A stretch of DNA of 64,000 nt, taken from NCBI GenBank assembly GCA_013178005.1, contig JABLXL010000002.1, positions 79,220-143,219 of the forward strand, read 5' to 3'. Shown piece after piece: positions 16,729-35,068 of the stretch. Each line of letters begins with the position of its first letter. Within the stretch, counting starts at the first letter, position 1. The DNA comes from Actinomycetota bacterium. GTDB taxonomy: Bacteria > Actinomycetota > Geothermincolia > Geothermincolales > RBG-13-55-18. Made by a program: the position numbers and the translations under genes. Below the pieces are notes generated by a model. The model ran no database searches. It saw nothing but the letters and a program-made list of their open reading frames with translations, and was not told the DNA's origin.

Positions 16729-18666
16729 ATGGCAGAACTGGAGGAAATGACGGCGTGCGAAGCCACGCTGGAAATGCTTAGAAAAGCCAAGGAGGAGGGG
16801 CAGGAGACCGCCTTCGACCGCGTGCAGCAGCAGAAAGGGTGCGCCTTCGGAGAGGCGGGAAGCTGCTGCCGCATCTGCAACATGGGACCCTGCCGTATCA
16901 ACCCCAAGAAGCCCGACGAGAGCCGGGGGGTATGCGGAGCCAACATCGACACCATCGTGGCGCGCAACTTCGCGCGCATGGTGGCGGGGGGTTCCTCCGC
17001 CCACTCCGACCACGGGCGAGCGGTGGCCGAGACCCTGATCATGGCCGCCAAGGGCGAGACGACGGACTACCAGATCAAGGACCGTGTCAAGCTCCTGGAG
17101 GTGGCGGCGGACCTGGACATCGAGATCGGCGACAGGGACATCAACGACATCGCCCTGGAGGTGGGCGAGCGATGCCTGGCCATGTTCGGGCAGCAGGAGG
17201 GCGAGCTGGCCTTCGCCCTGCGGGCGCCCGAGAAGCGCAAGGAGATATGGCGCCAGCGCGGGGTCTTCCCGCGCGGCATCGACCGCGAGGTGGTGGAGGT
17301 CATGCACCGCACCTCCATCGGGGTCGACCAGGACTATGAGAACATCCTCAAGGGCGCCGAGCGCTGCGCGCTTTCCGATGGGTGGGGCGGCTCCATGATC
17401 GGCACCGAGCTGCAGGACATCCTCTTCCAGACCCCGGTGCCCCTGGAGAGCAAGATCAACCTGGGCGTGCTCAAGGAGGACGAGGTCAACATCATCGTCC
17501 ACGGGCACGAGCCCATCCTCTCGGAGATGATCGTGCTCGCCGCCAGCCTGCCGGAGATGCAGGAGAAGGCGGAGAAGGTGGGCGCCAAGGGGATCAACCT
17601 CTCGGGCATCTGCTGCACCGCCAACGAGGTGCTCACCCGCCACGGGGTGCCCATCGCCGGCAACGTGCTGCAGCAGGAGCTGGCCCTCTTGACCGGTGCG
17701 GTGGAGGCCATGGTGGTGGACGTGCAGTGCGTGTACCAGGGCATCGGGCAGATAGCCAGTTGCCTGCACACCGACATCATCACCACCTCCCCCAAGGCCA
17801 AGATGCCCTACGCGAGGCACATCGAGTTCCACGAGGACCATGCCCTGGACATCGCCAAGGAGATAGTCTCCGCGGCCATCGACAACTTCCCCAAGCGAGG
17901 CAAGGTGAGCATCCCCGAAAACACGGAGTCGCTCATCGCCGGCTTCAACCACGAGTACATCAATTACATGCTGGGCGGGAAGTACCGCGCCTCCTACCGC
18001 CCCCTGAACGACGCCATCATCGACGGCCGCATCCGCGGCGTGGTGGGCGTGGTGGGCTGCAACAACCCCCGCGTCAAGCACGACGACATCCACGTCAGGG
18101 TGACCAGGGAGCTCATCGCCAACGGCTGCCTGGTGGTTATGACCGGATGCGCCGCGCAGTCGGTGGCCAAGGCGGGGCTCATGCTCCCCGAGGTGGCGCG
18201 CGAGATCTGCCCCCAGGGACTGTGGGAGGTCTGCGAGGCGGTGGGAATACCGCCGGTGCTCCACGCCGGTTCATGCGTGGACAACAGCCGCATCCTCATG
18301 TCCCTCACCGCCATGGTGCAGGAGGGCGGCCTGGGCGACGACATCAGCGACCTGCCGGCGGCGGGTTGCGCTCCGGAGTGGATGAGCGAGAAGGCCATCT
18401 CCATCGGAGAGTACTTCGTGGTTTCTGGAGCGGCCGTGGTCTTCGGAGTGAGCTGGCCCACCCTGGGCTCGAAGAACGTGACCGAACACCTGTTCGAGAA
18501 GTACAACGAGATATACAAGAACAGCTGGCACTTCGAGCCGGACCCGGAGAAGATGGTGGGCAAGCTCCTCACCCTCATCGATAGCAAGCGCGAGGCCCTG
18601 GGCATATCCGCCAAGCGCGAGAGGGTGCTCTACGACATGGCCATGAGGAGGGAGTTGGAGATCTAA
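16729..18666 (+). CDS. acsA: Ni-dependent carbon monoxide dehydrogenase catalytic subunit
   Basis: 645 residues. It reduces CO2 to CO at the Ni-Fe-S C-cluster and delivers CO to AcsB. The N-terminal cysteines C38 and C46 (D-cluster) and C47, C50, C55 and C69 (B-cluster) have exactly the spacing of Moorella CODH. Later conserved segments include GICCTANEV, VQCVYQG and VGVVGCNNPR, plus MTGCAAQS, consistent with C-cluster ligation. ATG preceded by GGAGGAAC. Its stop overlaps the acsB start by one base (TAATG), so the two subunits are probably translationally coupled, in keeping with the CODH/ACS complex. Also known as cooS in stand-alone enzymes. Confidence 0.96.
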   Translation: MAELEEMTACEATLEMLRKAKEEGQETAFDRVQQQKGCAFGEAGSCCRICNMGPCRINPKKPDESRGVCGANIDTIVARNFARMVAGGSSAHSDHGRAVAETLIMAAKGETTDYQIKDRVKLLEVAADLDIEIGDRDINDIALEVGERCLAMFGQQEGELAFALRAPEKRKEIWRQRGVFPRGIDREVVEVMHRTSIGVDQDYENILKGAERCALSDGWGGSMIGTELQDILFQTPVPLESKINLGVLKEDEVNIIVHGHEPILSEMIVLAASLPEMQEKAEKVGAKGINLSGICCTANEVLTRHGVPIAGNVLQQELALLTGAVEAMVVDVQCVYQGIGQIASCLHTDIITTSPKAKMPYARHIEFHEDHALDIAKEIVSAAIDNFPKRGKVSIPENTESLIAGFNHEYINYMLGGKYRASYRPLNDAIIDGRIRGVVGVVGCNNPRVKHDDIHVRVTRELIANGCLVVMTGCAAQSVAKAGLMLPEVAREICPQGLWEVCEAVGIPPVLHAGSCVDNSRILMSLTAMVQEGGLGDDISDLPAAGCAPEWMSEKAISIGEYFVVSGAAVVFGVSWPTLGSKNVTEHLFEKYNEIYKNSWHFEPDPEKMVGKLLTLIDSKREALGISAKRERVLYDMAMRRELEI

Positions 18667-20852
18667 TGAGTAGGATAATCGCAACCGCGGCAATCAAGGG
18701 GGCCTACAAGGAGGTGGCCGAGGCCGAGCGCGTGTTCAACGAGACGCTCGAGTCCGCCGGCGCCACCGCGAAGGTGGAGCTCCCCAACACGGGCTATTAC
18801 CTGCCCATCATCTACGCCCTCACCGGCCACAAGGTGGAGAAGGTGGAGGACATGGCCAAGGCCCTGGAGCTGGCCAAGGACCTGTTGCCGCCCGTGCCGA
18901 AGGCAAGGCACTGGGTGCCCTACCTGGGGCACGCCCTGGACGCGGGCATCGCCACCCTCTTCGCCGGGGAGATCATCGAGGGATGCAAGTACGTCACCAA
19001 CCCCCCCGTGGATGACCTCTGGCTGGGGGCGGCCGACGACGTGATCATGCGCGAGCGCGGGGTGGAATTCGTGGACGGTTCCGCCCCCGGGTTCTGCGCC
19101 CTGGTGGGCCGCGCCTCCACGCCGGAGATGGCGGACCAGATCGTGGTGGAGCTGCTGCAGAAGAACCTCTACGTGTGGATCTCCGGCCACGTGGACGGAG
19201 AGAGCATCGCCGAGCAGCTCCAGCAGGTGGACCGCCAGCTCGGTTGGGACACCCGCATCGTGCCCTACGGCAAGGAGATGTCCTCCGCGGTGTACTCACT
19301 GGGGTTCGCCGCCCGCGCCGCCATGTCCTTCGGCGGCGCCCAGCCCGGCGATTTCACCAAGATCCTGCGCTACAACAAGAACCGCATCTTCGCCTTCGTG
19401 CTGGCGCTGGACTACGTGGACGAGCAGAAGTACGCCTACGCGGCGGGGGCCATAAACTACGGCTTCCCCACCATCGCCAACACCAAGATCCCGGACATTC
19501 TCCCCACCGGAGTGTGCACCTACGAGCACGTGGTGGGAAGCGTCCCCGAGGAGGAGATCGTCCAGAAGTGCGTGGAGGTAAGGGGCCTCAAGATCCAGAT
19601 CGCCGAGATCCCCATCCCCATGGCCTACGGCCCCGCCTTCGAGGGCGAGGTCATCCGCAAGGACGACATGTACGTCCAGTTCGGCGGGAACATCACCCCC
19701 GCCTTCGAGTACGTGACCATGCGGGAGATGGACGAGATCACCGACGGCGTCATCGAGGTGGTGGGTCCGGAGATCGACGACGTCAACGAGGGCGACGCCC
19801 TGCCCCTGGGCATCGTGGTGGAGGTGGCCGGGCGCAAGATGCAGGAGGACTTCGAGTCCATCCTTGAGCGCCAGATCCACCACCTCATCAACGGCGCCGA
19901 GGGCATCTGGCACATGGGCCAGCGCGACATCGTGTGGACGCGCATCTCCAAGAAGGCCCAGGCCAAGGGGTTCAAGATCCGCCACTACGGCGAGATCATC
20001 CACGCCAAGCTGATCAACGACTTCCCCTCCATCGTGGACAAGGTGCAGGTGACCATCTACACCAACCCCGAGGACGTGGAGAAGTGGCTGGCCACGGCGC
20101 GCCAGGCCTACCGTTACCGCGACGAGAAGACGGCGGGGATGACCGATGAGTCGGTGGACACCTTCTACTCCTGCACCCTGTGCCAGTCCTTCGCCCCCAC
20201 CCACGTGTGCATCATCTCGCCCCAGAGGCTGGGGCTGTGCGGCGCCTACAACTGGCTGGACGGCAAGGCCGCCTACGAGATCGACCCCACCGGACCCAAC
20301 CAGCCGGTGAAGAAGGGAGACTGCACCGATCCGGTGAAGGGCGAATGGCCGGCCATCAGCGAGTTCGTGAAGGAGAAGTCCGGCGGCAACGTGGAGAACG
20401 TCAAGATGTACACCATGATGGAGGACCCCATGACCTCGTGCGGGTGCTTCGAGTGCATCGTGGCCTTCCTGCCCATGTGCAACGGGGTGATGATCGTCAA
20501 CCGCGAGTATTCGGGGATGACCCCGAGCGGCATGCCCTTCTCCACCCTTGCCAACTCGGTGGGCGGCGGCAACGTCACCCCCGGGTTCATCGGCATCGGC
20601 AAGGTGTACATCACCTCCAAGAAGTTCATCTCCGCGGACGGGGGCTTCAAGCGCATCGTGTGGATGCCCAAGGAGCTCAAGGAGACCCTCAAGGAGCAGC
20701 TGGAGAAGCGCTGCCAGGACGATGACGTCAACGACCCGGACTTCATCAACAAGATCGCCGACGAGGATGTGGGCACCAGCGAGGAGGAGATCCTCCCCTG
20801 GCTGGAGGAGAAGGGACATCCCGCCCTCACCATGGACCCGATGCTGATGTAG
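18666..20852 (+). CDS. acsB: Acetyl-CoA synthase subunit of CODH/ACS
   Basis: 728 residues, matching the full-length bacterial ACS (archaeal CdhC is shorter). It condenses CO, the corrinoid methyl group and CoA into acetyl-CoA at the Ni-Ni-Fe4S4 A-cluster. The A-cluster cysteines are all present: C503, C506, C515, C525, and the C-G-C pair C592 and C594, each exactly three positions below the Moorella numbering. The N-terminal region is the CO-tunnel and CODH-contact domain. The ATG overlaps the acsA stop. A strong GC hairpin follows directly after its stop, before acsC. Confidence 0.97.
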   Translation: MSRIIATAAIKGAYKEVAEAERVFNETLESAGATAKVELPNTGYYLPIIYALTGHKVEKVEDMAKALELAKDLLPPVPKARHWVPYLGHALDAGIATLFAGEIIEGCKYVTNPPVDDLWLGAADDVIMRERGVEFVDGSAPGFCALVGRASTPEMADQIVVELLQKNLYVWISGHVDGESIAEQLQQVDRQLGWDTRIVPYGKEMSSAVYSLGFAARAAMSFGGAQPGDFTKILRYNKNRIFAFVLALDYVDEQKYAYAAGAINYGFPTIANTKIPDILPTGVCTYEHVVGSVPEEEIVQKCVEVRGLKIQIAEIPIPMAYGPAFEGEVIRKDDMYVQFGGNITPAFEYVTMREMDEITDGVIEVVGPEIDDVNEGDALPLGIVVEVAGRKMQEDFESILERQIHHLINGAEGIWHMGQRDIVWTRISKKAQAKGFKIRHYGEIIHAKLINDFPSIVDKVQVTIYTNPEDVEKWLATARQAYRYRDEKTAGMTDESVDTFYSCTLCQSFAPTHVCIISPQRLGLCGAYNWLDGKAAYEIDPTGPNQPVKKGDCTDPVKGEWPAISEFVKEKSGGNVENVKMYTMMEDPMTSCGCFECIVAFLPMCNGVMIVNREYSGMTPSGMPFSTLANSVGGGNVTPGFIGIGKVYITSKKFISADGGFKRIVWMPKELKETLKEQLEKRCQDDDVNDPDFINKIADEDVGTSEEEILPWLEEKGHPALTMDPMLM

Positions 20853-20854
20853 GA

Positions 20855-20879
20855 AAGAGGGGGGCGCGTCCCCCCTCTT
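20855..20879 (+). promoter_or_regulatory. Strong stem-loop after acsB
   Basis: AAGAGGGGGG (20855-20864) pairs with CCCCCCTCTT (20870-20879) around the loop CGCGT. The stem begins two bases after the acsB stop. CTTGCG follows instead of a clear T-tract, so it may be a weak terminator or a processing/protection hairpin separating acsB from acsC. Confidence 0.6.
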
Positions 20880-20932
20880 CTTGCGACATAACGAGGTGGG
20901 AATACCGCTGATCAAGTAGGAAGGAGAAGGAG

Positions 20933-22282
20933 ATGGGACTTTCGGGCTTGGATATCTTCAAGAAGCTACCCAAGACCAATTGCAAGGAATGCGGCTTCCC
21001 GACCTGCCTCGCCTTCGCCATGAAGCTGGCGGCGGGACAGACGGCTCTCGACGAATGTCCCTACGTGACGGACGAGGTAAGGGCGGAGCTGGCCGAGGCC
21101 AGCGCCCCTCCCATCCGCGGGGTCACCGTCGGAGTGGGGGATGAGGCCTTCAAGGTGGGCGAGGAGCTGGTGCTCTTCCGCCACGAGAAGACCTTCTTCA
21201 ACCCCGCGGTCCTGGGCGTCTTGGTTAGCGACGACATGGACGACGCCAAGGTGGACGAGCTCTTGAAGCAGGCGAATGAGTGCGAGCACGAGCGCGTGGG
21301 CGTGATCCTCAAGGTAGGAGCCATCGCCGTAAAGGCCGCCTCCGGTGACGCAGGCAAGTTCAAGGCCCTGGTGGAGAAGGTGAAGGGCGCCACCGCCAAG
21401 CCCCTCATCCTCATGGCCGAGGACGTGGAAGTGATGAAGGCGGGAGTGGAGGCCGCGGGGGATTCCCGGCCGCTGCTCTATGCCGCCACCGAGGCCAACG
21501 CCGACGCCATGGGCGCGCTGGCGAAAGAGAAGGAGCTCCCCCTGGCGGTGAAGGCGGAGGACCTGGACAAGCTGGCGGAGCTCTCGGAGAAGCTCACCGG
21601 CATGGGGCTCAAGGACCTGGTGCTCGACCCCGCGCCGCGCAAGCCGGGGGAGACCTTCAAGGACCTGGTGGCCATCCGCAGGGCGGCCCTCAACCAGAAG
21701 TTCGCCGCCTTCGGGTTCCCCACCATCACCTTCCCCTGCGAGGAGACGGACGACGAGCTCTACGAGACCGCCCTGGCGGCGATGTACATCTGCAAGTACG
21801 GAGGCATCGTGGTGCTATCCCATGCCGAGCAGTGGAGGATGTATCCACTGCTGGTGCTGGGACTGAACATATATACCGACCCCCAGCGCCCCATGGCCGT
21901 GGACTCCAAGTTCTACGAGATCGGGGCCCCGGACGAGAACAGCCCGGTGCTGGTGACCACCAACTTCTCCCTCACCTACTTCATCGTCTCCGGCGAGATC
22001 GAGGGGAGCAAGATCCCGGCCTGGCTGGGCGTGGTGGACGTGGACGGGCAGTCGGTGCTCACCGCTTGGGCGGCGGGCAAGTTCGTGCCCGAGACCATCG
22101 CCAAGTTCATCAATACCTCGGGCATCGCGGACAAGGTAAAGCACCGCAAGCTGATCATCCCCGGCTACGTGGCCCAGATCTCGGGCGAGCTTGAGGAGGA
22201 GCTGCCCGACTGGGAGATCGTCATCGGCACTCGTGAGGCCGCGGACATCCCGGCCTTCCTGCGCCAGTTCTCCACCACTTGA
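20933..22282 (+). CDS. acsC: CODH/ACS corrinoid iron-sulfur protein, large subunit
   Basis: 449 residues. The N-terminal 4Fe-4S domain has C17, C20, C25 and C42 (NCKECGFPTC then ECPY), the cluster that feeds the low-potential electron to cobalt. A TIM barrel and a C-terminal cobalamin-binding Rossmann-like domain follow; the cobamide is held base-off, so no DxHxxG motif is expected or seen. It pairs with AcsD as the methyl carrier and is the target of AcsV and AcsE. ATG preceded by AAGGAGAAGGAG. Known as CdhE in archaea. Length is typical. Confidence 0.95.
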   Translation: MGLSGLDIFKKLPKTNCKECGFPTCLAFAMKLAAGQTALDECPYVTDEVRAELAEASAPPIRGVTVGVGDEAFKVGEELVLFRHEKTFFNPAVLGVLVSDDMDDAKVDELLKQANECEHERVGVILKVGAIAVKAASGDAGKFKALVEKVKGATAKPLILMAEDVEVMKAGVEAAGDSRPLLYAATEANADAMGALAKEKELPLAVKAEDLDKLAELSEKLTGMGLKDLVLDPAPRKPGETFKDLVAIRRAALNQKFAAFGFPTITFPCEETDDELYETALAAMYICKYGGIVVLSHAEQWRMYPLLVLGLNIYTDPQRPMAVDSKFYEIGAPDENSPVLVTTNFSLTYFIVSGEIEGSKIPAWLGVVDVDGQSVLTAWAAGKFVPETIAKFINTSGIADKVKHRKLIIPGYVAQISGELEEELPDWEIVIGTREAADIPAFLRQFSTT

Positions 22283-22366: not shown

Positions 22367-22412
22367 CGATATAGACGCAGAACGATCACAGTACGGAGGA
22401 GGAACGCGAAAG

Positions 22413-23078
22413 ATGATCATCACCACATCGAAGCCCTTCGAGGAGGTGCTCAAGGAACTCGAGGGCCAGGACAAGGTGTTCATCGTCGGCTGCGGCTCAT
22501 GCGCCACCACCTGCGAGACGGGTGGGGAGCCGCAGGTGGCCGAGATGAAGGCCAAGCTCGAGGCGGAGGGAAAGACGGTGACCGGCACCGTCGTTTACGA
22601 GGAAGTCTGCCACGAGCTCAACACCAAGCGGAAGTTCCGCGAGAACAAGGAAGCGGTGGAGGCCGCCGACGGCTTCCTGGTCATGTGCTGCGGGGCGGGT
22701 TGCCAGTCGGTGCGCGAGGCTACCGAGAAGGAAGTGCATCCTGCCTGCGACACCGTGTTCCTGGGCAACATCCTGCGCCAGGGGCAGTTCGTGGAGAAGT
22801 GTTCCCTGTGCGGTGACTGCGTGCTCGAGGACTTCGGGGCGATCTGCCCCGTGACCCGTTGCCACAAGGGCATCCTCAACGGACCCTGTGGCGGCACCGA
22901 CGAGGGCAAGTGCGAGACGGACAAGGAAAAGGACTGCGGCTGGACCCTCATCTACAACCAGCTTGAGAAGTTGGGCAAGCTCGACCGTTTCAAGCGCATC
23001 TACGGCCTCAAGAACTGGCAGGCGAGCATGAAGCCGGGCCGGGTGATCTTCGAGCGCAAGGGCGAAGGGGGTGAATAG
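22413..23078 (+). CDS. metV: MetV: zinc-binding subunit of methylene-THF reductase
   Basis: 221 residues, matching the 'methylenetetrahydrofolate reductase C-terminal domain-containing' MetV family. It is cysteine-rich: VGCGSCATTC near the start, EEVCHEL, MCCGAGC, then CSLCGDC, CPVTRC, GPCGG and a final C before DCGW. MetV partners with the flavoprotein MetF in acetogens and helps transfer electrons for reduction of methylene-THF to methyl-THF. ATG preceded by GGAGGAACG. The stop falls one base before the metF ATG (an alternative GTG would overlap), strongly suggesting a MetVF complex. No RnfC2, HdrA or MvhD partner gene is adjacent, so the physiological electron donor cannot be read from context. 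Confidence 0.92.
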   Translation: MIITTSKPFEEVLKELEGQDKVFIVGCGSCATTCETGGEPQVAEMKAKLEAEGKTVTGTVVYEEVCHELNTKRKFRENKEAVEAADGFLVMCCGAGCQSVREATEKEVHPACDTVFLGNILRQGQFVEKCSLCGDCVLEDFGAICPVTRCHKGILNGPCGGTDEGKCETDKEKDCGWTLIYNQLEKLGKLDRFKRIYGLKNWQASMKPGRVIFERKGEGGE

Positions 23079-23079
23079 C

Positions 23080-24009
23080 ATGACTCTGCTTTTCGACAAA
23101 CACGCCAAGCCCAGCATCCAGGAGGTCATGGAGTCCGGCAAGTTCCTCATCACCGGCGAGATCGGGCCCCCAAAGGGCACGGACATCGACGAGATGATCC
23201 ACCACATCGACCTGCTCAAGGACAAGGTCCATGCCATGAACATCACCGACAACCAGTCCTCGGTGATGCGCTATCCCTCCCTGGGCACGGCCCTGATCAT
23301 CCTGGAGCGCGGTGGTGAGCCCAACCTGCAGGTCACCTGCCGCGATCGCAATCGCCTGGCCATCGAGGCCGACCTGCTCTTCGCCTACACCCGCGGCGTG
23401 CGCAGCGTGCTCTGCCTCACAGGGGATTCCGTCCCCGTGGGAGACCACAAGGAGGCCAAGGGCGTCTTCGATTGCGAGAGCGTGCAGCTCCTGCAGATCA
23501 TCCGCAACATGGAGGAGGGCCGTGACTCGGGCGGCAACGAGCTGCAGGGCGGCGTGAAGTTCTACAAAGGCGCCATCGTCACCCCTGAGGCCGACCCCAT
23601 CGAGCCCCAGATGCTCAAGTTCGAGAAGAAGATCGAGGCGGGGGCGCAGTGGTTCCAGACCCAGGCCGTCTATGACATGGACAACTTCAAGCGCTTCATG
23701 GAGAGAGCGCGCAAGATCAACGACAAGGTGAAGATCTGCGCCGGCCTGGTGCTGCTCACCTCCATGGGCGCCATCCGATACATGAACGCCAATGTGCCTG
23801 GTGTATTCGTCCCCGATAACCTGGTCAAGGAGATGGCGGATGCCCCTAAGGGCGAGGCCCTCAACACCGGCATCAGGATCATGGCGCGCCAGATCCGCCA
23901 GTGCATAGACGAAAAGCTCTGCGACGGCGTGCACATCATGGCCATCGGGAAGGAAGATGTCGTTCCCAAGATACTGGAAGAGGCCGGGGTGGACATCACC
24001 AAGATGTAA
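23080..24009 (+). CDS. metF: 5,10-methylene-THF reductase (MetF)
   Basis: 309 residues, FAD-dependent TIM barrel. ITGEIGPPKGTD carries the catalytic Glu region, and ITDNQSSVMRYPS, LQVTCRDRNR (THF-site D/R) and LCLTGDSV are family signatures. It reduces methylene-THF to methyl-THF, the last step of the methyl branch before transfer to the corrinoid protein. I choose the ATG at 23080, spaced correctly from GGGGGTG; a GTG at 23071 overlapping metV is possible. Sits directly after metV. After its stop there is a short gap with a REP-like hairpin. Confidence 0.93.
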   Translation: MTLLFDKHAKPSIQEVMESGKFLITGEIGPPKGTDIDEMIHHIDLLKDKVHAMNITDNQSSVMRYPSLGTALIILERGGEPNLQVTCRDRNRLAIEADLLFAYTRGVRSVLCLTGDSVPVGDHKEAKGVFDCESVQLLQIIRNMEEGRDSGGNELQGGVKFYKGAIVTPEADPIEPQMLKFEKKIEAGAQWFQTQAVYDMDNFKRFMERARKINDKVKICAGLVLLTSMGAIRYMNANVPGVFVPDNLVKEMADAPKGEALNTGIRIMARQIRQCIDEKLCDGVHIMAIGKEDVVPKILEEAGVDITKM

Positions 24010-24053
24010 CACCGAAAGCGATCAGCCGCTATCGGTGACGCATAAAGGGAAAT

Positions 24054-24077
24054 GGGGTCAGGGTAAATCCTGACCCC
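24054..24077. repeat. Isolated REP-like perfect hairpin with GGGGTC arm
   Basis: GGGGTCAGG (24054-24062), loop GTAAAT, CCTGACCCC (24069-24077): nine perfect pairs starting 45 bases after the metF stop. The GGGGTC arm resembles the 3.1-3.5 kb tandem units and RAYT-associated REPs, although a transcriptional role (attenuator between metF and the next gene) is also possible. Confidence 0.6.
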
Positions 24078-24167
24078 ACCCTACGGGGTAAAGGCGAGCG
24101 TCGTTGGCGAGCAGCCGCGCCCCTCGGAGAGGGAACGCGGTGCCGGGGATATGGAGAGGACTTTGGC

Positions 24168-25205: not shown

Positions 25206-26134
25206 GCGAGGACGGACGGGAGAAGACATTGGAGAGGGAAGGAAAAGAAAGGCAGCGGGTCCGCGAAAGGCATAACGACGAGCGCATGCCGCGCTGGCTC
25301 CACCGCCCCATCCAGGCGGACAGGGGTATGCGCGAGGTGGATGCGCTCCTGCGCAGGCTGGACCTGCACACCGTTTGCGAGAGCGCCAAATGCCCCAACC
25401 GCATGGAATGCTTCTCGCGACGTACCGCCACTTTCATGCTCCTGGGCGATACCTGTACCCGCAACTGTGCCTTTTGCGGCGTTGCCAAGGGGGTTCCCGC
25501 CGCGCCGGACGCCGGGGAGCCGGAGCGGGTGGCGGAGGCGGCCGCGCAACTGGGCCTGGAACACGTGGTCATCACCAGCGTCACCCGTGACGACCTCGGG
25601 GACGGAGGGGCATCCCTTTTCGCCGCTGCGGTGCGTGCCGTGAAGGCCCGCCTTCCCGGGGCCACGGTGGAGGTGCTGACGCCGGATTTCCGGGGCGACC
25701 TACGGGCCCTTCGCCTGGTGCTGGGTGCGGGACCGGATATCTTCAACCACAATCTGGAAACGGTGGAGGGGCTGTACGAAAGGGCGAGGCCGGGGGCCGA
25801 TTACCGCCGCTCTCTCGCCCTGCTCGAGACGGCCAAGAACGAGGGCATGGGGGTGAGTACCAAGAGTGGGATAATGGTGGGGCTGGGCGAGACGCGAGAG
25901 CAGTTGCGGGCCCTGTTCCGCGACCTGGCGGAAGTGGGTTGTGATATGCTGACCATCGGGCAGTACCTGAGGCCGTCGCGTGCCCAGCTGAAAGTGGACA
26001 GGTTCCTCTCGCCGCGGGAGTTCGCGGAACTGGCGCGGGAGGCGGAGGAGGCGGGCATACCGCTGGTGGCCTCCGCCCCTTTCGTGCGCAGTTCCTACCG
26101 GGCGGGAGAGCTTTGGCAAAGCGCTTGTATGTAA
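25202..26134 (+). CDS. lipA: Lipoyl synthase (radical SAM)
   Basis: 310 residues. The auxiliary 4Fe-4S cluster motif C59-x4-C64-x5-C70 (CESAKCPNRMEC), the radical-SAM cluster C85-x3-C89-x2-C92 (CTRNCAFC) and the closing RSSY motif are all present, so the enzyme should be active. It inserts two sulfur atoms into protein-bound octanoyl groups. The ATG overlaps the stop of the methionine-synthase-like gene by four bases. The first 28 residues are a charged extension rich in E and R. The lipoyl substrates in this window would be GcvH at 54.3 kb; LipB/LipM is not seen. Placement inside a Wood-Ljungdahl operon links glycine cleavage to the THF pool. Confidence 0.95.
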   Translation: MSEDGREKTLEREGKERQRVRERHNDERMPRWLHRPIQADRGMREVDALLRRLDLHTVCESAKCPNRMECFSRRTATFMLLGDTCTRNCAFCGVAKGVPAAPDAGEPERVAEAAAQLGLEHVVITSVTRDDLGDGGASLFAAAVRAVKARLPGATVEVLTPDFRGDLRALRLVLGAGPDIFNHNLETVEGLYERARPGADYRRSLALLETAKNEGMGVSTKSGIMVGLGETREQLRALFRDLAEVGCDMLTIGQYLRPSRAQLKVDRFLSPREFAELAREAEEAGIPLVASAPFVRSSYRAGELWQSACM

Positions 26135-26188
26135 CAGGTGTGAAGATCGACGGGTCGATCGCGAGGTGAAGACGAGGAGGAGGAAAAG

Positions 26189-27076
26189 ATGCTGATCATC
26201 GGCGAGAAGGTCAACGTGATGATGAAGAAGATCGGCGCCGCCATGAAGGAGTTCGACAAGAAGCCCATCCAGGAGATGGCGCTTCTGCAGGTCGAGGGTG
26301 GGGCCAACTGGCTTGACATCAACCTGGGGCCTGCTACAAAGCAGGGGCCTGAGCGCATGCGCTTCGTGGTAGAGGCGGTACAAGAGGTCACCGACGTGCC
26401 ATTGGCCCTGGACACCATGAACATCGAGGCCATGAAGGCGGGACTGGAGACGGTGAAGGGCCGTGAGGTGATGATCAATTCCATTTCCTCCCAGCCCGAT
26501 CGCATCGCCGCCCTCATGCCCATGGCCGTCGAATACAACGCCTGGGTAGTGGGGCTGGTACTCAACGACCAGGGCAACGTGCCCCGTGACGCCTCAGAGA
26601 GGGTGGAGGTCGCCTACAACATCATCATGGCCGCCCAGGAGCATGGGATCCCCTTGGACAAGCTGCTCATCGACCCCATCGTCCTCCCCATCAGCGTCAC
26701 CCAGGACCAGGTTCACGCGCTCATCGACGCCATGGACATGCTGCAGGGCGTGTTCGCGGAGTTCGATCCCGCCCCCGGCACCGTGGTAGGACTTTCCAAC
26801 GTCTCCAACGGCGTACCGGACGAGTCCCTGTGCAGCCTCCTTAACCGCACCTTGCTGGCGGTGCTCATGGTCAAGGGGCTGACCGCGGCCATCGTGGACC
26901 CCAACGACGAGGCGCTCATGGGCGTAGTGAACAAGAACGAGGAGTACCAGATAGTGGAGAAGATCGTCAACGGCGAGGCCGTGGACGAGAGCGATCCCCT
27001 CACCATCAAGCTCCTCAAGACCTGGCGGGTGCTTACGGAGGAGACCCTGTACGCCCATTCCTATCTCGAACTTTAG
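26189..27076 (+). CDS. acsE: Methyl-THF:corrinoid iron-sulfur protein methyltransferase
   Basis: 295 residues, pterin-binding TIM barrel. LIIGEKVNV opens the barrel, followed by NWLDINLGPA and ALDTMN (THF-contacting Asp and Asn), INSIS, LIDPIVLPI, and VVGLSNVSNG with the asparagine that activates the N5-methyl group. AcsE moves the methyl group from methyl-THF to Co(I) of AcsCD. ATG preceded by GAGGAGGAGG. The protein is about 30 residues longer at its C-terminus than Moorella MeTr. It is followed by a strong hairpin and a 500-base gap, so it probably ends a transcript. Confidence 0.93.
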   Translation: MLIIGEKVNVMMKKIGAAMKEFDKKPIQEMALLQVEGGANWLDINLGPATKQGPERMRFVVEAVQEVTDVPLALDTMNIEAMKAGLETVKGREVMINSISSQPDRIAALMPMAVEYNAWVVGLVLNDQGNVPRDASERVEVAYNIIMAAQEHGIPLDKLLIDPIVLPISVTQDQVHALIDAMDMLQGVFAEFDPAPGTVVGLSNVSNGVPDESLCSLLNRTLLAVLMVKGLTAAIVDPNDEALMGVVNKNEEYQIVEKIVNGEAVDESDPLTIKLLKTWRVLTEETLYAHSYLEL

Positions 27077-27090
27077 TCGTTTAGTAGCTT

Positions 27091-27122
27091 GCGAGGGCCG
27101 GGGCGCCGGCCGTGGCCCTCGC
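27091..27122 (+). terminator. Hairpin at the end of the fhs-acsE transcript
   Basis: GCGAGGGCC (27091-27099) pairs perfectly with GGCCCTCGC (27114-27122), with more GC pairing inside the 14-base loop. It begins 14 bases after the acsE stop. No T-run follows, so it may act with Rho or protect the 3' end rather than terminate alone. Confidence 0.5.
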
Positions 27123-27584
27123 ACGTACATGATGGAGGCAGGAGAGCGGGGAGCGCGGGCCGAAAAAGGCATGGCGTGGATGGTGAGGATTCGTCCCGAT
27201 ATGGGCCGGAGATGACGGAAGTCGGCGCCATGGCCATGCATAAGGGCCCGAGGAGGCGAGGCTTTCTCGAGTCCCGACGTCCCGTGCATCCTCGAGGTGA
27301 TGGACGGCATGGTGAACGGGCCCACCACCGAAGACATCTAGGAGGGGTGAGGAGACGGCGCACCGCGCGATGGCGGGCCGGGTCGGCGTGGATTTGCCGT
27401 ACACGGCGTGGGATTGCTGCCGGGCCGCATGCGGGCGGGGACGCTACGACGCACATGCGCCAAGCGATCCGCGAGCGCTGACGCCTTGCCTTGAGACGTA
27501 TGGGCGGGTTGAGATCCTCACGTGACGGTGATTGCCGTGGATGTGTGGGGCTTTCGATCCCTGGATACGGCGAGGTGGATTGAC
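27123..27584. other. Gene-free stretch before the formate dehydrogenase genes
   Basis: About 460 bases between acsE and the NuoE-like gene. Apart from the coding-like remnant at 27212-27341 it is a mixture of GC-rich sequence without ribosome sites. I see no tRNA. A promoter for the formate dehydrogenase operon would be expected here, but no convincing -35/-10 pair was found. Confidence 0.4.
27212..27341 (+). pseudogene. Possible frameshifted coding remnant
   Basis: Two pieces show the GC-rich third-position codon pattern of real genes but lie in different frames. From the ATG at 27212 one frame reads MTEVGAMAMHKGP; after about 27260 another frame reads VPCILEVMDGMVNGP and then TTEDI to a TAG at 27341. 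A single indel between them would restore one short open frame. The product is not recognised. It could equally be a chance pattern in high-GC DNA or a sequencing/assembly indel in a small gene. Confidence 0.25.
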
Positions 27585-28106
27585 ATGAATGAAGAAGCCT
27601 GTCAGTGCAAGCAGAGGTTCGCGGATGTGAACGACCTCGGTCCGCTGGAGGAGATCCTCGAGCGCTACCGTGAAGAGAAAGGGGCACTCATACCCCTGCT
27701 GCAGGACGCCCAGGAGGCTTACGGCTACCTGGACGAGAAGATCATGCGCGCCCTGGCCAGGGGCGCGGGCTACCAGCTCAGCCAGGTCTACGGCGTGGCC
27801 ACCTTCTACACCCAGTTCAGGCTGGAGCCCATCGGAGAGCACCTCATCCGCGTCTGCCACGGCACCGCCTGCCACGTGGCGGGGGCCGAGCTCATCTCCG
27901 AGGAGATCTCCAACCTCCTGGGGATCAAGGACGGGCAGACCACCGAGGACATGAAGTTCACCCTGGAATCGGTGATGTGCGTGGGCGCCTGCTCCCTGTC
28001 TCCCATCATGATCGTGGACGAGGACACCCACGGCAAGCTCAAGCCCGCCAACGTGCGCAAGGTGCTCAAGCGTTACATGGGCGATACCGGGGAGGCGGAA
28101 GAATGA
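27585..28106 (+). CDS. NuoE/HydC-like [2Fe-2S] subunit of formate dehydrogenase
   Basis: 173 residues. Thioredoxin-like 2Fe-2S domain with C91-x4-C96 (CHGTACHVAGA) and C132-x3-C136 (CVGACSLSP), as in NuoE, HydC and HndA. An N-terminal helical part (LEEILERYREEKGALIPLLQ) is typical. It relays electrons to or from the flavin subunit encoded next. ATG at 27585 with GAGGTGG upstream; an upstream GTG at 27522 is possible but precedes non-family sequence. The stop overlaps the next start (ATGA), so the subunits are translationally coupled. Confidence 0.88.
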   Translation: MNEEACQCKQRFADVNDLGPLEEILERYREEKGALIPLLQDAQEAYGYLDEKIMRALARGAGYQLSQVYGVATFYTQFRLEPIGEHLIRVCHGTACHVAGAELISEEISNLLGIKDGQTTEDMKFTLESVMCVGACSLSPIMIVDEDTHGKLKPANVRKVLKRYMGDTGEAEE

Positions 28107-29887
28107 GCGGCAACGGCAAGGCCAAGCTAGTCCTGGGCTACGGCACCTGCGGTATCGCCGCCGGGGCCAACGCGGTGAAGGAGGCCCTGGAGAGCGAGCT
28201 GGCTAGCGGGAAATACCCCGCATTCCTGGACATCGCCGGCTGCATGGGCTTTTGCTTCCGCGAGCCCATCGTCGAGGTCACCACCCCGGACGGGAGGTCG
28301 GTGGTCTACGGAGACCTCACCCCCAAGCGGGTGCCCCAGCTCCTGCAGGCGCTGGCCGCGGGCGAGGTCATCGAGGACTGGGTGGTGAGGCGCTCCGATG
28401 ACCCCGCCGCGGGAGAGGGGGACTTCCTGGCCAACCAGCACCGCATCGTACTGCGCAACTGCGGCAACATCAACCCCGAGAGCATCCAGGAATACATCGG
28501 AGCCGGCGGGTACGAGGCGGCGCGCAAGGCGCTCACCTCCATGACCCCCGAAGAGCTCATCGACGAGGTCTCCAAGTCCGGCATCCGGGGCCGCGGCGGC
28601 GCGGGTTTCCCCACCGGCACCAAGTGGGGCTTCGCGCGCAAGGCGAAGGGCGACCAGAAGTACCTGGTGTGCAACGCCGATGAGGGCGACCCGGGCGCCT
28701 TCATGGACCGCAGCGTGCTTGAGGGCGACCCCCACTCGGTCATCGAGGGCATGATCATCGCCGGCTACGCCATCGGGGCCACCCAGGCATATATATACTG
28801 CCGCGCCGAGTACCCCCTGGCCCTGAAACGGCTGGAAATCGCCATCGCCGCCTGCCACGAGATGGGCTTCCTCGGCAAGGGCATCTTCGGCACCGACTGG
28901 GACTTCGACATCAAGATCAAGAAGGGGGCGGGAGCCTTCGTATGCGGCGAGGAGACGGCGCTCATCGCCTCCATCGAGGGCAAGCGGGGCATGCCGCGCC
29001 CGCGGCCGCCATTCCCCGCCAACGAGGGGCTGTGGGGAAAACCCACCAACATCAACAACGTGGAGACCCTGGCGGCCATCCCCTGGATCATCGCCAACGG
29101 CGGGGATAAGTACGCCTCCATAGGCACGGAGAAGAGCAAGGGGACCAAGGTCTTCTGTCTGGCGGGAAAGATCCGCCGCAGCGGCCTCGCCGAGGTGCCC
29201 ATGGGATATACCCTGCGCCAGGTCATCTTCGACGTCGGCGGGGGGGTGAGAGAGGGCAAGGAGTTCAAGGCGGTGCAGATGGGAGGCCCCTCCGGGGGGT
29301 GCCTGCCCGCCAGCCTCCTGGACACCCTGGTGGATTACGAGGCCATCACCGCCACCGGCGCCATCATGGGCTCCGGGGGCATGATCGTGGCCGACTCCTC
29401 CACCTGCATGGTGGACCTGGCGCGTTACTTCCTCTCCTTCACCCAGGAGGAGAGCTGCGGCAAGTGCGTTCCCTGCCGCATCGGCACCAAGCGCATGCTG
29501 GAGATCCTTGCCCGCATCTGCGAGGGGAAGGGAGAGCCGGAGGATATCGAGAGGCTGGAGACCCTGGCCGGGGACATCAAGGCGGCCAGCCTTTGCGCCC
29601 TGGGGGGGACGGCCCCCAACCCCGTGCTCACCACCCTCAAGTACTTCCGCAACGAGTACGAGGACCACATCCTGCGCGGCAAGTGCACCGCCGGGGTGTG
29701 CCCGGCGCTGATCACCGTGATCATCGACCAGGATACCTGCACCGGCTGCGGGGCATGCGCCAAGGTGTGCCCGGTGGAGGCCATCAGCGGGGAGAAGAAG
29801 CAGCCCCACTCCATCGACGCCGCAAAGTGCATCCGGTGCAAGCTCTGCGTGAGCCGCTGTCCGGAAGAGGCCATCTACACGGAATGA
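28103..29887 (+). CDS. NuoF/HydB-like NAD(P)H-binding flavoprotein subunit
   Basis: 594 residues in four parts: an N-terminal thioredoxin-like Fe-S domain (GTCGIAAGA, then GCMGFC), the NuoF FMN/NADH domain (RGRGGAGFPTGTKWGF and the ADEGDPGAFMDR loop), an SLBB-like part with a 4Fe-4S site (ESCGKCVPCRIGTKRML), and two C-terminal ferredoxin clusters (CTGCGACAKVCP and CIRCKLCVSRCP). This is the HydB/HndC layout found in electron-bifurcating hydrogenases and formate dehydrogenases, so it probably exchanges electrons with NAD(P) and perhaps ferredoxin. ATG overlaps the preceding stop; fdhA starts 10 bases after its own stop. Confidence 0.9.
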   Translation: MSGNGKAKLVLGYGTCGIAAGANAVKEALESELASGKYPAFLDIAGCMGFCFREPIVEVTTPDGRSVVYGDLTPKRVPQLLQALAAGEVIEDWVVRRSDDPAAGEGDFLANQHRIVLRNCGNINPESIQEYIGAGGYEAARKALTSMTPEELIDEVSKSGIRGRGGAGFPTGTKWGFARKAKGDQKYLVCNADEGDPGAFMDRSVLEGDPHSVIEGMIIAGYAIGATQAYIYCRAEYPLALKRLEIAIAACHEMGFLGKGIFGTDWDFDIKIKKGAGAFVCGEETALIASIEGKRGMPRPRPPFPANEGLWGKPTNINNVETLAAIPWIIANGGDKYASIGTEKSKGTKVFCLAGKIRRSGLAEVPMGYTLRQVIFDVGGGVREGKEFKAVQMGGPSGGCLPASLLDTLVDYEAITATGAIMGSGGMIVADSSTCMVDLARYFLSFTQEESCGKCVPCRIGTKRMLEILARICEGKGEPEDIERLETLAGDIKAASLCALGGTAPNPVLTTLKYFRNEYEDHILRGKCTAGVCPALITVIIDQDTCTGCGACAKVCPVEAISGEKKQPHSIDAAKCIRCKLCVSRCPEEAIYTE

Positions 29888-29897
29888 GGAGGTCGGA

Positions 29898-32633
29898 ATG
29901 GAGCAGGTTCGTTTGACCATAGACGGCAAAGAGGTCGTGACCACCTCCGACCGTACCATCCTGGAGGCGGCGAGGGAGGCCGGGGTACGCGTCCCCAGCC
30001 TCTGCTACGAGGAGCGCATGGACCCCTACGGCGCCTGCCGCATCTGCCTGGTGGAGGTGGAGGGCGCGAGGGGGCTGCTTCCGGCCTGTTACACCAAGGT
30101 CACCGACGGCATGGTGGTGCGCACCGCCACCGAGGACCTGGCTCGCATCAGGCGCACCATCCTGGAGCTCATCCTCTCCGACCACCCCAAGGACTGCATG
30201 ACCTGCGAGAGCGCGGGCGACTGCGAGCTGCAGGACCTGGCCTACGAGTACGGGGTGAAGGAAACGTCCTACAAGGGGGAGGAGCACCACTACGAGGTCC
30301 TGGCGGATAACCCCCTCATTGAGCGCGACTACGACAAGTGCATCCTCTGCGGGCGTTGCATCCGCATCTGCCGCGAGGTGCAGGGCGTGGGGGTCTATGA
30401 TTTCGTTAACCGCGGCTTCGAGTCCGTGCCGGGGATACCTTACGGAAAGCCCATGACCGAGTCCCCCTGTGAGTTCTGCGGGCAGTGCGTCTCCACCTGT
30501 CCCACCGGCGCCATTATCTCCATCCCCTCCAAGGGCAAGGGGCGCTCCTGGCAGGTGGAGAAGGTGAGGACCACTTGTCCCTACTGCGGGTGCGGGTGCC
30601 AGCTCGACCTGCACGTGCGCGACGGAGAGATAATCGAGGTCTCCTCGCCGGTGATGGTCGGGCCGGGCGAGGGCAACCTGTGCGTGAAGGGGCGCTACGG
30701 CTACGGTTTCGTGCATCACCCGGACCGCCTCACCCAGCCCCTGGTGAGGAAGGGCGGAAAGGGCGGCGAGCTGGTCCCCGCCACCTGGGAGGAAGCCCTG
30801 GGCGCGGTGGCGGGCCACATCCGCAAGGCCATGGACGAGGGGGGGCCGGATTCGGTGGCCTTCCTGGCCTCGGCGAGGTGCACCAACGAGGAGAACTACC
30901 TCATGCAGAAGCTTGCCCGCGCGGTGGTCGGCACCAACAACGTCGACCACTGCGCGCGTTTATGACACAGCTCCACCGTCGCCGGTCTGGCGACAGCTTT
31001 CGGGAGCGGGGCCATGACCAACTCCATCGACGACCTGGAAAAGGCCGATTGCATCCTGGTCATAGGGTCCAACACCACCGAGGGGCATCCCATCATCGGG
31101 CTGCGCATCAAGCGCGCGGTGATGAAGAACGGCTGCCGGCTCATCGTGGCCGAGCCGCGCCACATCCGCCTCTGCTATTACGCCGGGCAGTGGATACGGC
31201 AGAAACCTGGGACCGACGTCGCCCTGCTCAACGGGATGATGAACGTCATCCTCTCCGAGGGGCTGGCGGACGAGGACTTCATCCGCGAGCGCACCGAGGG
31301 CTTCGAGGAGTTCAGGAAGACGGTGGAGCAGTACCCTCCCGAGAGGGCGGCGGAGATCTGCGGCGTGGAGGCGGAGGAAATCAGGCGCGCCGCCCGCACC
31401 TTCGCCTCCGCGGAGAGCGCGGCCATCGTCTATGCCATGGGCATCACCCAGCACACCACCGGGGTGGACAACGTCCTCAGCCTGGCAAACCTGGCCATGC
31501 TCACCGGCAACCTGGGCAAGGAGGGCGCGGGGGTCAACCCCCTGCGCGGCCAGAACAACGTGCAGGGCGCCTGCGACATGGGCGGGCTTCCCAACGTCTT
31601 CACCGGCTACCAGCCCGTCTCCGACCCCAAGGTGAGGGAGAAGTTCGAGGCGGCGTGGGGGGTGGATTACCTGCCGGGAAATCCCGGCCTGACCCTCACG
31701 GAGATGACGGACGCCGCCCACCGCGGGGACGTCAAGGTCCTCTATATAATGGGCGAGAACCCGGTCATCTCCGACCCCGACATCAGGCATCTCAAGGAAG
31801 CCCTGGAGAGGGTTGAGTTCCTGGTGGTACAGGATATCTTCCTCACCGAGACCGCAGCCTACGCGGACGTGGTGCTGCCCTCGGCTTCCTTCGCGGAGAA
31901 AGAGGGCACCTTCACCAACACCGACCGCCGCGTGCAGAGGGTGCGCAAGGCGGTGGAGCCGCCGGGGGAGGCCAGGGAGGACTCCTGGATCATCGCCCAG
32001 GTGGCGGCGCGGCTGGGCTATGACATGGGTTATATCTCAGCGGAGAAGGTGATGGAGGAGATCGCCTCCCTCACCCCATCCTACGGCGGCATCTCCTACC
32101 AGAGACTGGAAAAGGAGGGCGAGCTGAGGTGGCCCTGCCCGGACGCGGAGCACCCGGGAACGCCCATCCTCCATGTGGGGAAATTTACCAGGGGCAAAGG
32201 CCTTTTCAGCGCGGTGGAATACAAGCCGCCCGCCGAGGAGCCGGATGAGGAGTACCCCTTCATCCTCACCACGGGGAGGCTGCTTGCCCACTACCATACC
32301 GGGAGCATGACCAGGAGGGTGGAGCCCCTCAACGAGCTGGTGCCGCGCAACCGGGTCTGGATCAACCCCGCGGACGCCGAGAGGCTGGGGGTGGCGGACG
32401 GAGACGAGGTGGGCCTGCAGTCGCGGCGCGGCGCCATAAAGCTGGAGGCCAAGGTGACCAGGAAGGTGTCGGAAGGAGTGGTTTTCGTCCCCTTCCACTT
32501 CGGGGAGTCGCCCGCCAACGCCCTTACCAATTCCGCCCTGGACCCGGTGGCCAAGATCCCGGAACTCAAAGTGGCCGCGGTGCGGGTGCTGGCCGGAGAG
32601 GACGCGAAGGGCGTGACCTACGATATGGCATGA
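29898..32633 (+). CDS. fdhA: Selenocysteine-containing formate dehydrogenase alpha subunit (UGA at 30963 read as Sec)
   Basis: 911 residues when the in-frame TGA at 30963-30965 is read as selenocysteine (residue 356). The context [15 protein letters not shown] is the classical FdhA active site, where position U is Sec or Cys. The N-terminal 2Fe-2S domain has C36, C47, C50 and C64; a NuoG-type H-x3-C-x2-C-x5-C site and two 4Fe-4S clusters ([11 protein letters not shown] and [11 protein letters not shown]) follow, then the molybdopterin/tungstopterin domains opening with [10 protein letters not shown]. It reduces CO2 to formate, the first step of the methyl branch. Conceptual translation without recoding would give a false 355-residue protein and a second frame from 31014. 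ATG with GGAGGTCGG upstream. Confidence 0.93.
30963..31007 (+). promoter_or_regulatory. UGA selenocysteine codon with bacterial SECIS hairpin
   Basis: After the TGA (30963-30965), GTCGCC (30978-30983) and GGCGAC (30989-30994) form six perfect pairs around the loop GGTCT, the same apical GGUCU seen in the E. coli fdhF SECIS. An outer stem GCTCC (30970-30974) with GGAGC (31003-31007) extends it. The loop lies about 18 bases after the UGA, inside the range needed for SelB. The organism must encode SelA, SelB, SelC and SelD; none is in this window. Confidence 0.9.
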
Positions 32634-32806
32634 GGCGCGCCGGCGGCGAAATGATCGCGATGGCCGCCTGTTCGTGCTGACCGCGGCGGCGCGGGATGGT
32701 AGAATAGTTAGGGACTGGGGCACGAGGAGAGCGAGATAAGGTCTAACCGTCAAGGTCTGGTTCCATGAAGGGGCCGCGAGGATCGTAGAAACGGGAGAGA
32801 TGCCAC

Positions 32807-34315
32807 ATGAATCTATACCATAATCTCGTGAGGACCGCGGAGAAGAACCCCGATGCCACGGCCCTGTACTTCGGGCACGAGACCATTTCGTACGGGGAGC
32901 TGCTGGCCCGCACCAACCGCCTGGCCAACGCCCTGCGCGAGTTGGGGGTGGACGGGGACTCCAAGGTGGCCATCCTCTTGCGCAACGTGCCCGAGTTCGT
33001 GATCTCCTATTACGCCGTCCTCGCCCTGGGGGCGGTGGTGGTCCCCTTGTGTTACATGTGCCTGGCGGAAGAGGTGGAGAAGATCGTCTGCGACTCCATG
33101 GTGGAGACACTCATCACCAACTTCGAGTTCGACGACCTGGTAAAGGACCTTCAGGCTTCCATGTGTTCCCAGATCAGCCGCATCATCGTGAAGGATGCCC
33201 CGGAACTGGAGGGCGTGATCCAGTTCGAGAAGCTGGTGGAGGGAAAGGAGACGGAGTTCACGGCCGTTGAGCGCTCCGACGACGAAGTGGCGGCCCTCCT
33301 CTACGCGCCCACATCGTCGAAGGTGGTGAGGGGTTGCATGCTCACCCACGGCAACCTGGGCTGGAACGCGCGCACCATCGCCGAGAAGTGCGCCATGGAC
33401 GAGAGCGACGTGGTCATGGGGGTGCTGCCGTTCTTCGCCGCCTACGGCCAGAGTTGCGTGATGAACGCCTCCATATACGCCGGCGCCAGCATCGTTATGC
33501 ACGAGTCCTTCATCCCCGGCGAGGTCCTGAAGTCGCTTCAGCACGAGCAGGCGACGATCTTCTTCGGCGTTCCCACCATGTACGTGTACATCCTCAACCA
33601 CCCCCTCATCTACCAGTACGACCTGGGGTCGGTCAGGCTGTGGTTCTGCGGCGGCGCGCCCTTCCCGCGCGAGGTCATGGACCGCTGGAACAACGAGCTG
33701 GGCTCGAGGATCTACGAGGGCTACGGTCTCACCGAGGCCGCGCCCCTGGTCACCATGCAGCCCCTGGAGGGCCCGTACAAGGTGGGGTCCATCGGCAAGG
33801 CCCCGGAGGACCTGGAGCTCAAGGTCATCGACGAAGAGGGCAACGAGCTGCAGCGCGGCGAGGTGGGAGAGCTCATCGTGCGCGGGCCCAACATCATGAA
33901 GGGCTACTACAACAAGCCGGAGGACACGGCCGAGGTGCTCAAGGACGGGTGGCTGTATACCGGCGACATGGTGTATATGGACGAGGACGACTATGTGTTC
34001 ATCGTGGGGAGGAAGAAAGACCTCATCATCCGCGGCGGGTTCAACATCTACCCGCGCGAGATCGAGGAGGTGTTGGTGAGCCATCCCCTCATCTCGGAGG
34101 CGGCCGTGGTGGGCGTTCCCAATAAGTACCTCGGCGAGGAGGTTAAGGCCTACGTGAAGCAGAAACCGGGCTCCAACCTCACCGAGGAGCAGGTGCTGGA
34201 ATACTGCGAGGAGCGCTTGCCTTACTACAAGACGCCCAAGTTCGTGGTCTTCGTGAGGTCCTTCAAGAAGGACCCCTCGGGTCAGATCCTCAAGGAACTC
34301 ATAGAAGAGGAGTGA
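32807..34315 (+). CDS. AMP-forming acyl-CoA synthetase-like protein with altered P-loop
   Basis: 502 residues, ANL superfamily. The middle and C-terminal signatures are intact: YEGYGLTEAAP (A5-type), GWLYTGDM, GRKKDLIIRGGFNIYP and a late lysine in SGQILKEL that normally drives adenylation. The phosphate-binding loop, however, reads YAPTSSKVVRG (166-176) where family members have YTSGTTGxPKG, losing both glycines and the lysine. Either the enzyme uses a divergent loop, or it has lost normal adenylation. The ATG follows a 173-base gap after fdhA and may have its own promoter. Natural substrates would be fatty or other carboxylic acids; not determined. Confidence 0.8.
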   Translation: MNLYHNLVRTAEKNPDATALYFGHETISYGELLARTNRLANALRELGVDGDSKVAILLRNVPEFVISYYAVLALGAVVVPLCYMCLAEEVEKIVCDSMVETLITNFEFDDLVKDLQASMCSQISRIIVKDAPELEGVIQFEKLVEGKETEFTAVERSDDEVAALLYAPTSSKVVRGCMLTHGNLGWNARTIAEKCAMDESDVVMGVLPFFAAYGQSCVMNASIYAGASIVMHESFIPGEVLKSLQHEQATIFFGVPTMYVYILNHPLIYQYDLGSVRLWFCGGAPFPREVMDRWNNELGSRIYEGYGLTEAAPLVTMQPLEGPYKVGSIGKAPEDLELKVIDEEGNELQRGEVGELIVRGPNIMKGYYNKPEDTAEVLKDGWLYTGDMVYMDEDDYVFIVGRKKDLIIRGGFNIYPREIEEVLVSHPLISEAAVVGVPNKYLGEEVKAYVKQKPGSNLTEEQVLEYCEERLPYYKTPKFVVFVRSFKKDPSGQILKELIEEE

Positions 34316-34432
34316 GGCCATGCCCGCCGCGGCGCTCGCGTCCGCGGGCGAGTTCGCCACGTGGATACGGCCGCCTCGCCTGGGGGCGGTGCGGGCGCCG
34401 CGTTCGTTCTCCCGCATGACCGAGGACCGTGT

Positions 34433-35068
34433 TTGAACGGCACCGTCGTCGATGACGTCCTGAAATGGCTCATGCCCCTGTTCCTCGACTGGGGGTACCT
34501 CATCGTCTTTGCCGGGGTGGCGCTGGAGAGCTTCTTTCTCACCGGCTGGATAGCGCCCGGCACCACCGTGGTATTGATCGCCTCCTTCTATTCCGCGCAC
34601 GGGGCCATGAACGTCTATATGGTCTGGGCGACGGTGGTGGTATCGGCCCTGCTCGGAGACAACCTCGGATTCCTGATCGGCAGGCGCATGGGCAGGGAGC
34701 TTGAGGACAGGTACCGCGGCAAGCCGCGCTTCTCCAGGGGCATGGGGAGGGTGCGGCGCTTCTTCTCGCGTTACGGGGCCGCCACGGTGCTCTTCGGTCG
34801 CCTTTTGTCGGGGGTGGACGCCTTCATACCCCTGGCCGCGGGGAGCGGCGGGATGCCGCGCGCGAAATACGTGCTCTACGACGTGCCGGCGATCGTGCTG
34901 TGGTCGGGATTGCTCTGCGCCCTCGGCTATTTCCTGGGGGAGAACTGGAGGGCCATCGACAGGTTCATAGGGAGCTTGGGCTGGGGCCTCCTTCTTGGCG
35001 TCATCCTGGTGTCCCTCGTCGTCCTCGCCGTGAAGAGGGGCCGCGGCAAGTCCCGGCCCGCGGCTTGA
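34433..35068 (+). CDS. DedA-family membrane protein
   Basis: About 211 residues. It contains the DedA/SNARE-associated signature: a re-entrant segment with ESFFLTGWIAPGTT, a GDNLGFLIGRRMGR segment, FGRLLSGVDAFIPLAAG with its conserved arginine, and about five hydrophobic helices. DedA proteins are inner-membrane, proton-dependent and include undecaprenyl-phosphate or phospholipid flippases. The TTG at 34433 with GAGGA just upstream best matches the fold; the frame is open to a GTG at 34361 whose extra part is not membrane-like. It follows the acyl-CoA synthetase-like gene by about 120 bases. Substrate unknown. Confidence 0.75.
   Translation: MNGTVVDDVLKWLMPLFLDWGYLIVFAGVALESFFLTGWIAPGTTVVLIASFYSAHGAMNVYMVWATVVVSALLGDNLGFLIGRRMGRELEDRYRGKPRFSRGMGRVRRFFSRYGAATVLFGRLLSGVDAFIPLAAGSGGMPRAKYVLYDVPAIVLWSGLLCALGYFLGENWRAIDRFIGSLGWGLLLGVILVSLVVLAVKRGRGKSRPAA

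Follow-up and report, generated by a model that had tools for sequence, protein, structure and literature searches.

A UGA codon with a GGUCU-loop hairpin as the probable selenocysteine site of formate dehydrogenase FdhA in a Geothermincolia-like actinobacterium

The gene fdhA, which encodes a formate dehydrogenase alpha subunit in an actinobacterial draft genome, is almost certainly a selenoprotein gene, in which an in-frame UGA is read as selenocysteine (Sec) with the GGUCU hairpin behind it as the SECIS element. The pairing of UGA-encoded Sec with a hairpin is well known in formate dehydrogenases; here it is seen in an actinobacterial lineage that has been little studied. The window, i.e., the whole stretch of 64,000 nucleotides that was analysed (G000:C12:79220-143219), comes from a 3.6-Mb draft (G000) of 98 contigs that is 97% complete. 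In the literature on Geothermincolia, no title on this fdhA was present among the matches listed (titles and abstract starts), and in that on Solincola, no title on Ca. Solincola was present among the matches listed. The features of the gene and its surroundings are as follows:

29898..32633, plus strand: fdhA, formate dehydrogenase alpha subunit, 911 aa with TGA codon 356 as Sec (TIGR01591)
within 29898..32633, plus strand: NuoG-like Fe-S domains at the FdhA N-terminus (profile search)
30963..30965, plus strand: in-frame TGA, Sec codon, residue 356, followed by His
30978..30994, plus strand: bacterial SECIS, 6-bp stem 30978-30983 / 30989-30994 with GGTCT loop 30984-30988
29887..29892, plus strand: AGGAGG, likely ribosome-binding site of fdhA (read from the sequence)
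28103..29887, plus strand: NuoF-like FMN/Fe-S subunit, start approximate (PF01512, PF10589)
27522..28106, plus strand: NuoE-like 2Fe-2S subunit (PF01257)
26189..27076, plus strand: pterin-binding methyltransferase, AcsE-like (PF00809; below the NCBIfam cut-offs)
22413..24009, plus strand: genes with PF12225 (MTHFR C-terminal, MetV-like) and PF02219 (MTHFR, MetF)
16729..22282, plus strand: genes for CO dehydrogenase, acetyl-CoA synthase and CdhD/FeS-type proteins (corrinoid protein)

Translation of 29898-32633 with the TGA as a residue gives a protein of 911 aa, ending at a terminal TGA at 32631-32633. The first-pass annotation had placed the internal TGA between HCARL and HSSTVAGLA, at the Cys/Sec site of formate dehydrogenases, and had described the frame as open beyond it; both are correct, with exactly 355 residues before the codon and 555 codons after it. 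The product scores 897.8 bits against the NCBIfam model for formate dehydrogenase subunit alpha (TIGR01591, cut-off 666.25), and its Pfam domains follow one another from the N-terminus as Fer2_4, NADH-G_4Fe-4S_3, Fer4-type, Molybdop_Fe4S4, Molybdopterin and Molydop_binding. The best matches among solved structures are 9wxb, over FdhA residues 4-899, and 6tg9, over residues 4-902. In these FdsA-type proteins, the column of the TGA codon is occupied by the active-site Cys, with His next in each. A paralogous FdhA-like gene of the same genome (C25:30818-33487, L150) also carries the TGA and the hairpin.

The site was compared across 170 loci (L021-L190), of which one (L170) does not reach it, leaving 169 codons. 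The loci derive from two overlapping collections and include paralogues, and some stem from identical or almost identical genomes. The codon is TGA in 119 of the homologous sites, TGC in 33 and TGT in 17; the proposed comparison with Cys-type FdhA sequences thus finds a Cys codon at the very same position in 50 of 169.

As was anticipated in the first-pass annotation, mechanical listing of open reading frames splits the gene into 29898-30965 (355 aa) and 31014-32633 (539 aa). The recovery of both frames is the argument for a real stop, which would leave either a pseudogene or two separate proteins, yet this is an extremely improbable explanation. The interruption coincides exactly with the catalytic residue and lies within a single Pfam domain (PF00384, FdhA 277-704), and the same codon is TGA in 118 other loci, although, with two overlapping collections, these are not all independent. 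Moreover, no other in-frame stop occurs in the aligned columns of 115 of the 119 TGA loci, and in the remaining four, the extra stop lies close to the natural end (query position 901-904). A second recoding event in the homologues was considered and rejected, as extra stops occur in the aligned columns of 7 of 169 loci, in six of them close to the natural end (query position 899-904). The seventh, the Cys-type FdhA of L138 (G276), contains an in-frame TAG at query position 744, well inside the gene.

The hairpin GUCGCC-GGUCU-GGCGAC comprises 17 nt and reaches -9.5 kcal/mol when folded alone, with 18 nt from the UGA to the start of the loop. The six-pair stem with a GGTCT loop at the right distance, as originally described, is therefore present at 30978-30994. 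The bSECIS model quoted in PMC13188914 has an apical loop of 3-9 nt, an upper stem of 4-16 bp, G in the first two loop positions, a UGA-to-loop distance of 16-37 nt and an MFE of at most -7.5 kcal/mol; the fdhA element (loop 5 nt, stem 6 bp, 18 nt, -9.5 kcal/mol) satisfies these constraints. RNA folding, proposed as a check of the region, does not by itself establish a SECIS. The folding energies of four stretches are unremarkable against shuffles (z of -1.0, -0.5, +0.7 and -0.3), Rfam at gathering thresholds gave no match in the window, and of the 886 in-frame positions in fdhA, 219 precede a hairpin of at least 6 bp with G in the loop. For these reasons, the mere presence of a hairpin after the TGA says little. 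When the window was searched for further cases of TGA read-through, length alone gave 143 candidates, of which 34 have a loose hairpin. The exact form of the element is less common. Of 127,880 positions (window, both strands), a single one has GGTCT enclosed by a 6-bp stem in this register, and synonymous recoding of the fdhA peptide with the gene's own codon usage produces the exact element in 1.1% of draws. The codon GGT is rarely used in fdhA, accounting for 3 of the 87 Gly codons.

The decisive evidence comes from the homologues. For the element counts, L170, L264, L265 and duplicate rows, with no difference in the 48 nt behind the codon (8 TGA, 1 Cys), were excluded, leaving 111 TGA and 49 Cys sites. 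GGTCT is found in 108 of the TGA sites versus 12 of the Cys sites, and the intact element, a 6-bp stem with GGTCT, in 92 versus one (L083); Fisher's test gives p 5e-24 for the latter contrast, with kinship ignored. When one representative is kept per 75%-identity cluster, the intact element is present in 58/67 TGA and 1/41 Cys sites, and at 65% identity in 30/32 and 1/23. The stem also covaries. Its third pair is G-C in 50 sites, C-G in 48, T-A in 8, A-T in 3 and G-T in 2; paired cells in the stem alignment amount to 646 of 666, compared with a maximum of 571 in 500 shuffles, and changes on both sides of the stem number 74, compared with at most 29 in six controls in which the partner was slid 1-3 nt either way. 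Exceptions are three TGA sites without GGTCT (L044, L104, L130) and 17 of the 111 with fewer than six stem pairs. On this comparative basis, the association of the TGA with the hairpin element across homologues is overwhelming.

The same counts bear on the idea that UGA does encode Sec while the hairpin is a mere by-product of the conserved VAGLA peptide. The peptide is largely kept in the Cys homologues and GGTCT does appear in the dozen Cys sites mentioned above, as this idea would have it. However, when synonymous codons are drawn at each gene's usage, 2.46 intact elements are expected among the 111 TGA sites, far below the number observed, and 0.38 among the 49 Cys sites. The difference between TGA and Cys sites also persists in all three bands of G+C of the fetched locus: 30/37 versus 1/27 below 0.5, 31/36 versus 0/11 at 0.5-0.6 and 31/38 versus 0/11 at 0.6-0.7. 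A by-product of the peptide is accordingly given only a minute probability, and the hairpin is taken as the SECIS of a Sec codon.

A sequencing or assembly error in place of a Cys codon would be another way to obtain the TGA, and it draws some credit from the state of the genome, a draft in many contigs, and from Cys being a common alternative at the site. The relatives speak against it, as does the intact element itself, present here and in a single one of the 49 Cys sites. The TGA and an identical hairpin are found in a same-genus genome whose gene is 92% identical (L022). Among the named relatives found for the gene, the nearest is 'Candidatus Solincola quzhuomuensis' (L051, 84% identical), from a genus placed in Actinomycetota, Ca. 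Geothermincolia; it shows the same TGA and hairpin, as do other relatives. Because the TGA recurs in the congener and in the Ca. Solincola record, the error that the first-pass annotation had named as a way to overturn its reading (TGA for TGC) is very unlikely, to the point of near exclusion.

The machinery for Sec insertion is encoded in the same genome. On contig C49, selD (376.8 bits), selA (595.5), selB (380.4) and tRNA-Sec (78.8) follow in this order, each above its cut-off, within about 28964-34672 (~6 kb), and ARAGORN assigns the tRNA the anticodon tca (UCA). The genes selA, selB, selC and selD, which were to be looked for in the genome, are thus all present in one cluster, and since both selB and tRNA-Sec lie on C49, refutation by their absence fails. 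The SelD of this genome reads SGUAAK with an in-frame TGA, at what we take to be the Sec site of SelD; a search for this site found it in L232, L233 and L017 and did not find it in L191, L192, L194 and L195. A second selB match (C19, with two TAG) was discarded, as it overlaps an ORF taken by eye for EF-Tu; the neighbours of this ORF look by eye like EF-G and ribosomal-protein ORFs. A general reassignment of UGA to one of the standard amino acids, for instance Trp or Gly, is a vanishingly improbable reading of this organism. Apart from the tRNA-Sec(UCA), selA, selB and selD just described, it is opposed by the TGA stops that close fdhA, the gene of the NuoF-like subunit and a gene with its end at 34315, and by the site column, which holds only Cys or TGA in 169 of 169 homologous sites.

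The class was sampled by 31 genomes within a set of 396. Among the 31, selA is present in 27 and a tRNA-Sec match at E <= 1e-9 in 26, with the anticodon read by ARAGORN in G000, G187 and G283 only. All 24 class genomes in which a TGA FdhA was seen carry selA; one of them, G133, has TGA FdhA and selA but no tRNA-Sec match at E <= 1e-9. The four genomes without selA comprise three in which a Cys FdhA was read (G229, G030, G262) and G321. Also with selA are G187 and G273, in which the sites that were read hold Cys, and G303, in which the match stops short of the site. A TGA considered as the Sec codon of G273 was rejected, as the Sec codon there reads TGC and the TGA lies elsewhere.

A probable example of the loss of the Sec codon is provided by G187, of the same genus as the window, in which both FdhA copies found have TGC (L023, L183). 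The main copy, L023, has a GGGCT loop and a broken closing pair, and in L183, the stem is still able to pair and the loop is also GGGCT. The genome retains selA, tRNA-Sec and a TGA-containing selD. With Cys in both copies found and the sel genes kept, Sec is not indispensable, and the two copies look like a recent Sec-to-Cys conversion. This picture fits the FdhA Sec-to-Cys conversions, including some Cys genes with remnant hairpins, that are described in PMC1794560. In a separate observation, two Cys-codon FdhA paralogues, L161 (G044) and L166 (G251), have partial SECIS-like hairpins, that of L166 with a GGTCT loop. Both genomes also carry a TGA FdhA and a GCA tRNA resembling tRNA-Sec.

A tRNA of this kind is also encoded in the genome studied here:

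G000:C33:22273-22362 (L224:3270-3363), minus strand: tRNA-Sec-shaped tRNA-Cys, anticodon GCA, U73, encoded CCA (RF01852, 65.0 bits)

It occurs besides a canonical tRNA-Cys (C4, L257). Similar GCA tRNAs are found in 9 of the 31 class genomes, this one included, and, counted by eye, no fewer than 22 of the 396 phylum genomes show the core CTGCAAACCCGTNGGC; the pattern used for the core is loose, most other rows look like chance, and a reversed control also matches. The tRNA resembles the selC* tRNA-Cys of PMC7609411, which in the available part of that paper is listed from Firmicutes, Thermodesulfobacteria, Nitrospirae and Proteobacteria, with Actinomycetota absent from the listing. The selC* tRNA-Cys is described there as an 8/4 form with an A51a bulge, whereas the predicted fold here, with 13 stacked acceptor and T-arm pairs (7+6), is not obviously of this form. 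Five ORFs within 7 kb of the tRNA were scanned; three have families (subtilase-like, B12-binding radical SAM and PAS), and no selB-like gene is among the five. It is conceivable, if very unlikely, that the two tRNA-Sec-shaped tRNAs, Sec(UCA) and U73 Cys(GCA), link the delivery of Sec and Cys at UGA and at UGC/UGU codons with a hairpin, such as those of L161 and L166. If true, UGA-Sec would not stand alone, being coupled to the GCA tRNA at SECIS-like Cys codons.

The arrangement can be compared with known systems. In E. coli fdhF, UGA stands at the catalytic Sec and is immediately followed by a GGUCU-loop hairpin, the upper stem of which has a bulged U. The fdhA site is similar in the position of its UGA and hairpin and differs in its uninterrupted 6-bp stem. 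FdhA matches E. coli formate dehydrogenase H (chain 1aa6) with E 3.2e-183; unlike fdhF, fdhA encodes an additional Fe-S region, NuoG-like and N-terminal, and is accompanied by NuoE/NuoF-like partner genes. Close known systems are the FdhA of Moorella mulderi (L086) and, grouped with it, those of other anaerobes. The M. mulderi protein is 54% identical over nearly the whole length and has the same TGA codon and a GGTCT hairpin, although it belongs to a different phylum and its stem is GTGGCC/GGCCAT rather than GTCGCC/GGCGAC.

A Wood-Ljungdahl gene cluster occupies 16729-32633 of the window, with fdhA preceded by the nuoE- and nuoF-like genes. Based on these neighbours, FdhA is probably the NAD-linked formate dehydrogenase / CO2 reductase of the pathway. 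In the mechanism proposed here, for which we infer Sec insertion, SelB binding and the electron carrier, metal and catalytic direction of FdhA, SelB with Sec-tRNA-Sec(UCA) would bind the GGUCU hairpin directly 3′ of the UGA. Selenocysteine would then be incorporated at residue 356, the position of the active-site Mo/W ligand. The 911-residue FdhA would work with the NuoE-like and NuoF-like subunits, in a complex that probably heads the methyl branch of the Wood-Ljungdahl pathway.

The Sec reading of fdhA implies no new mechanism. It corrects the reading of a key CO2/formate enzyme in the draft genome of a Geothermincolia-like actinobacterium, where two broken ORFs from mechanical calling could make the Wood-Ljungdahl pathway seem incomplete. 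The presence of Sec and Cys relatives in one genus and class also offers a natural setting in which to compare how the SECIS is lost once Sec has been converted to Cys.
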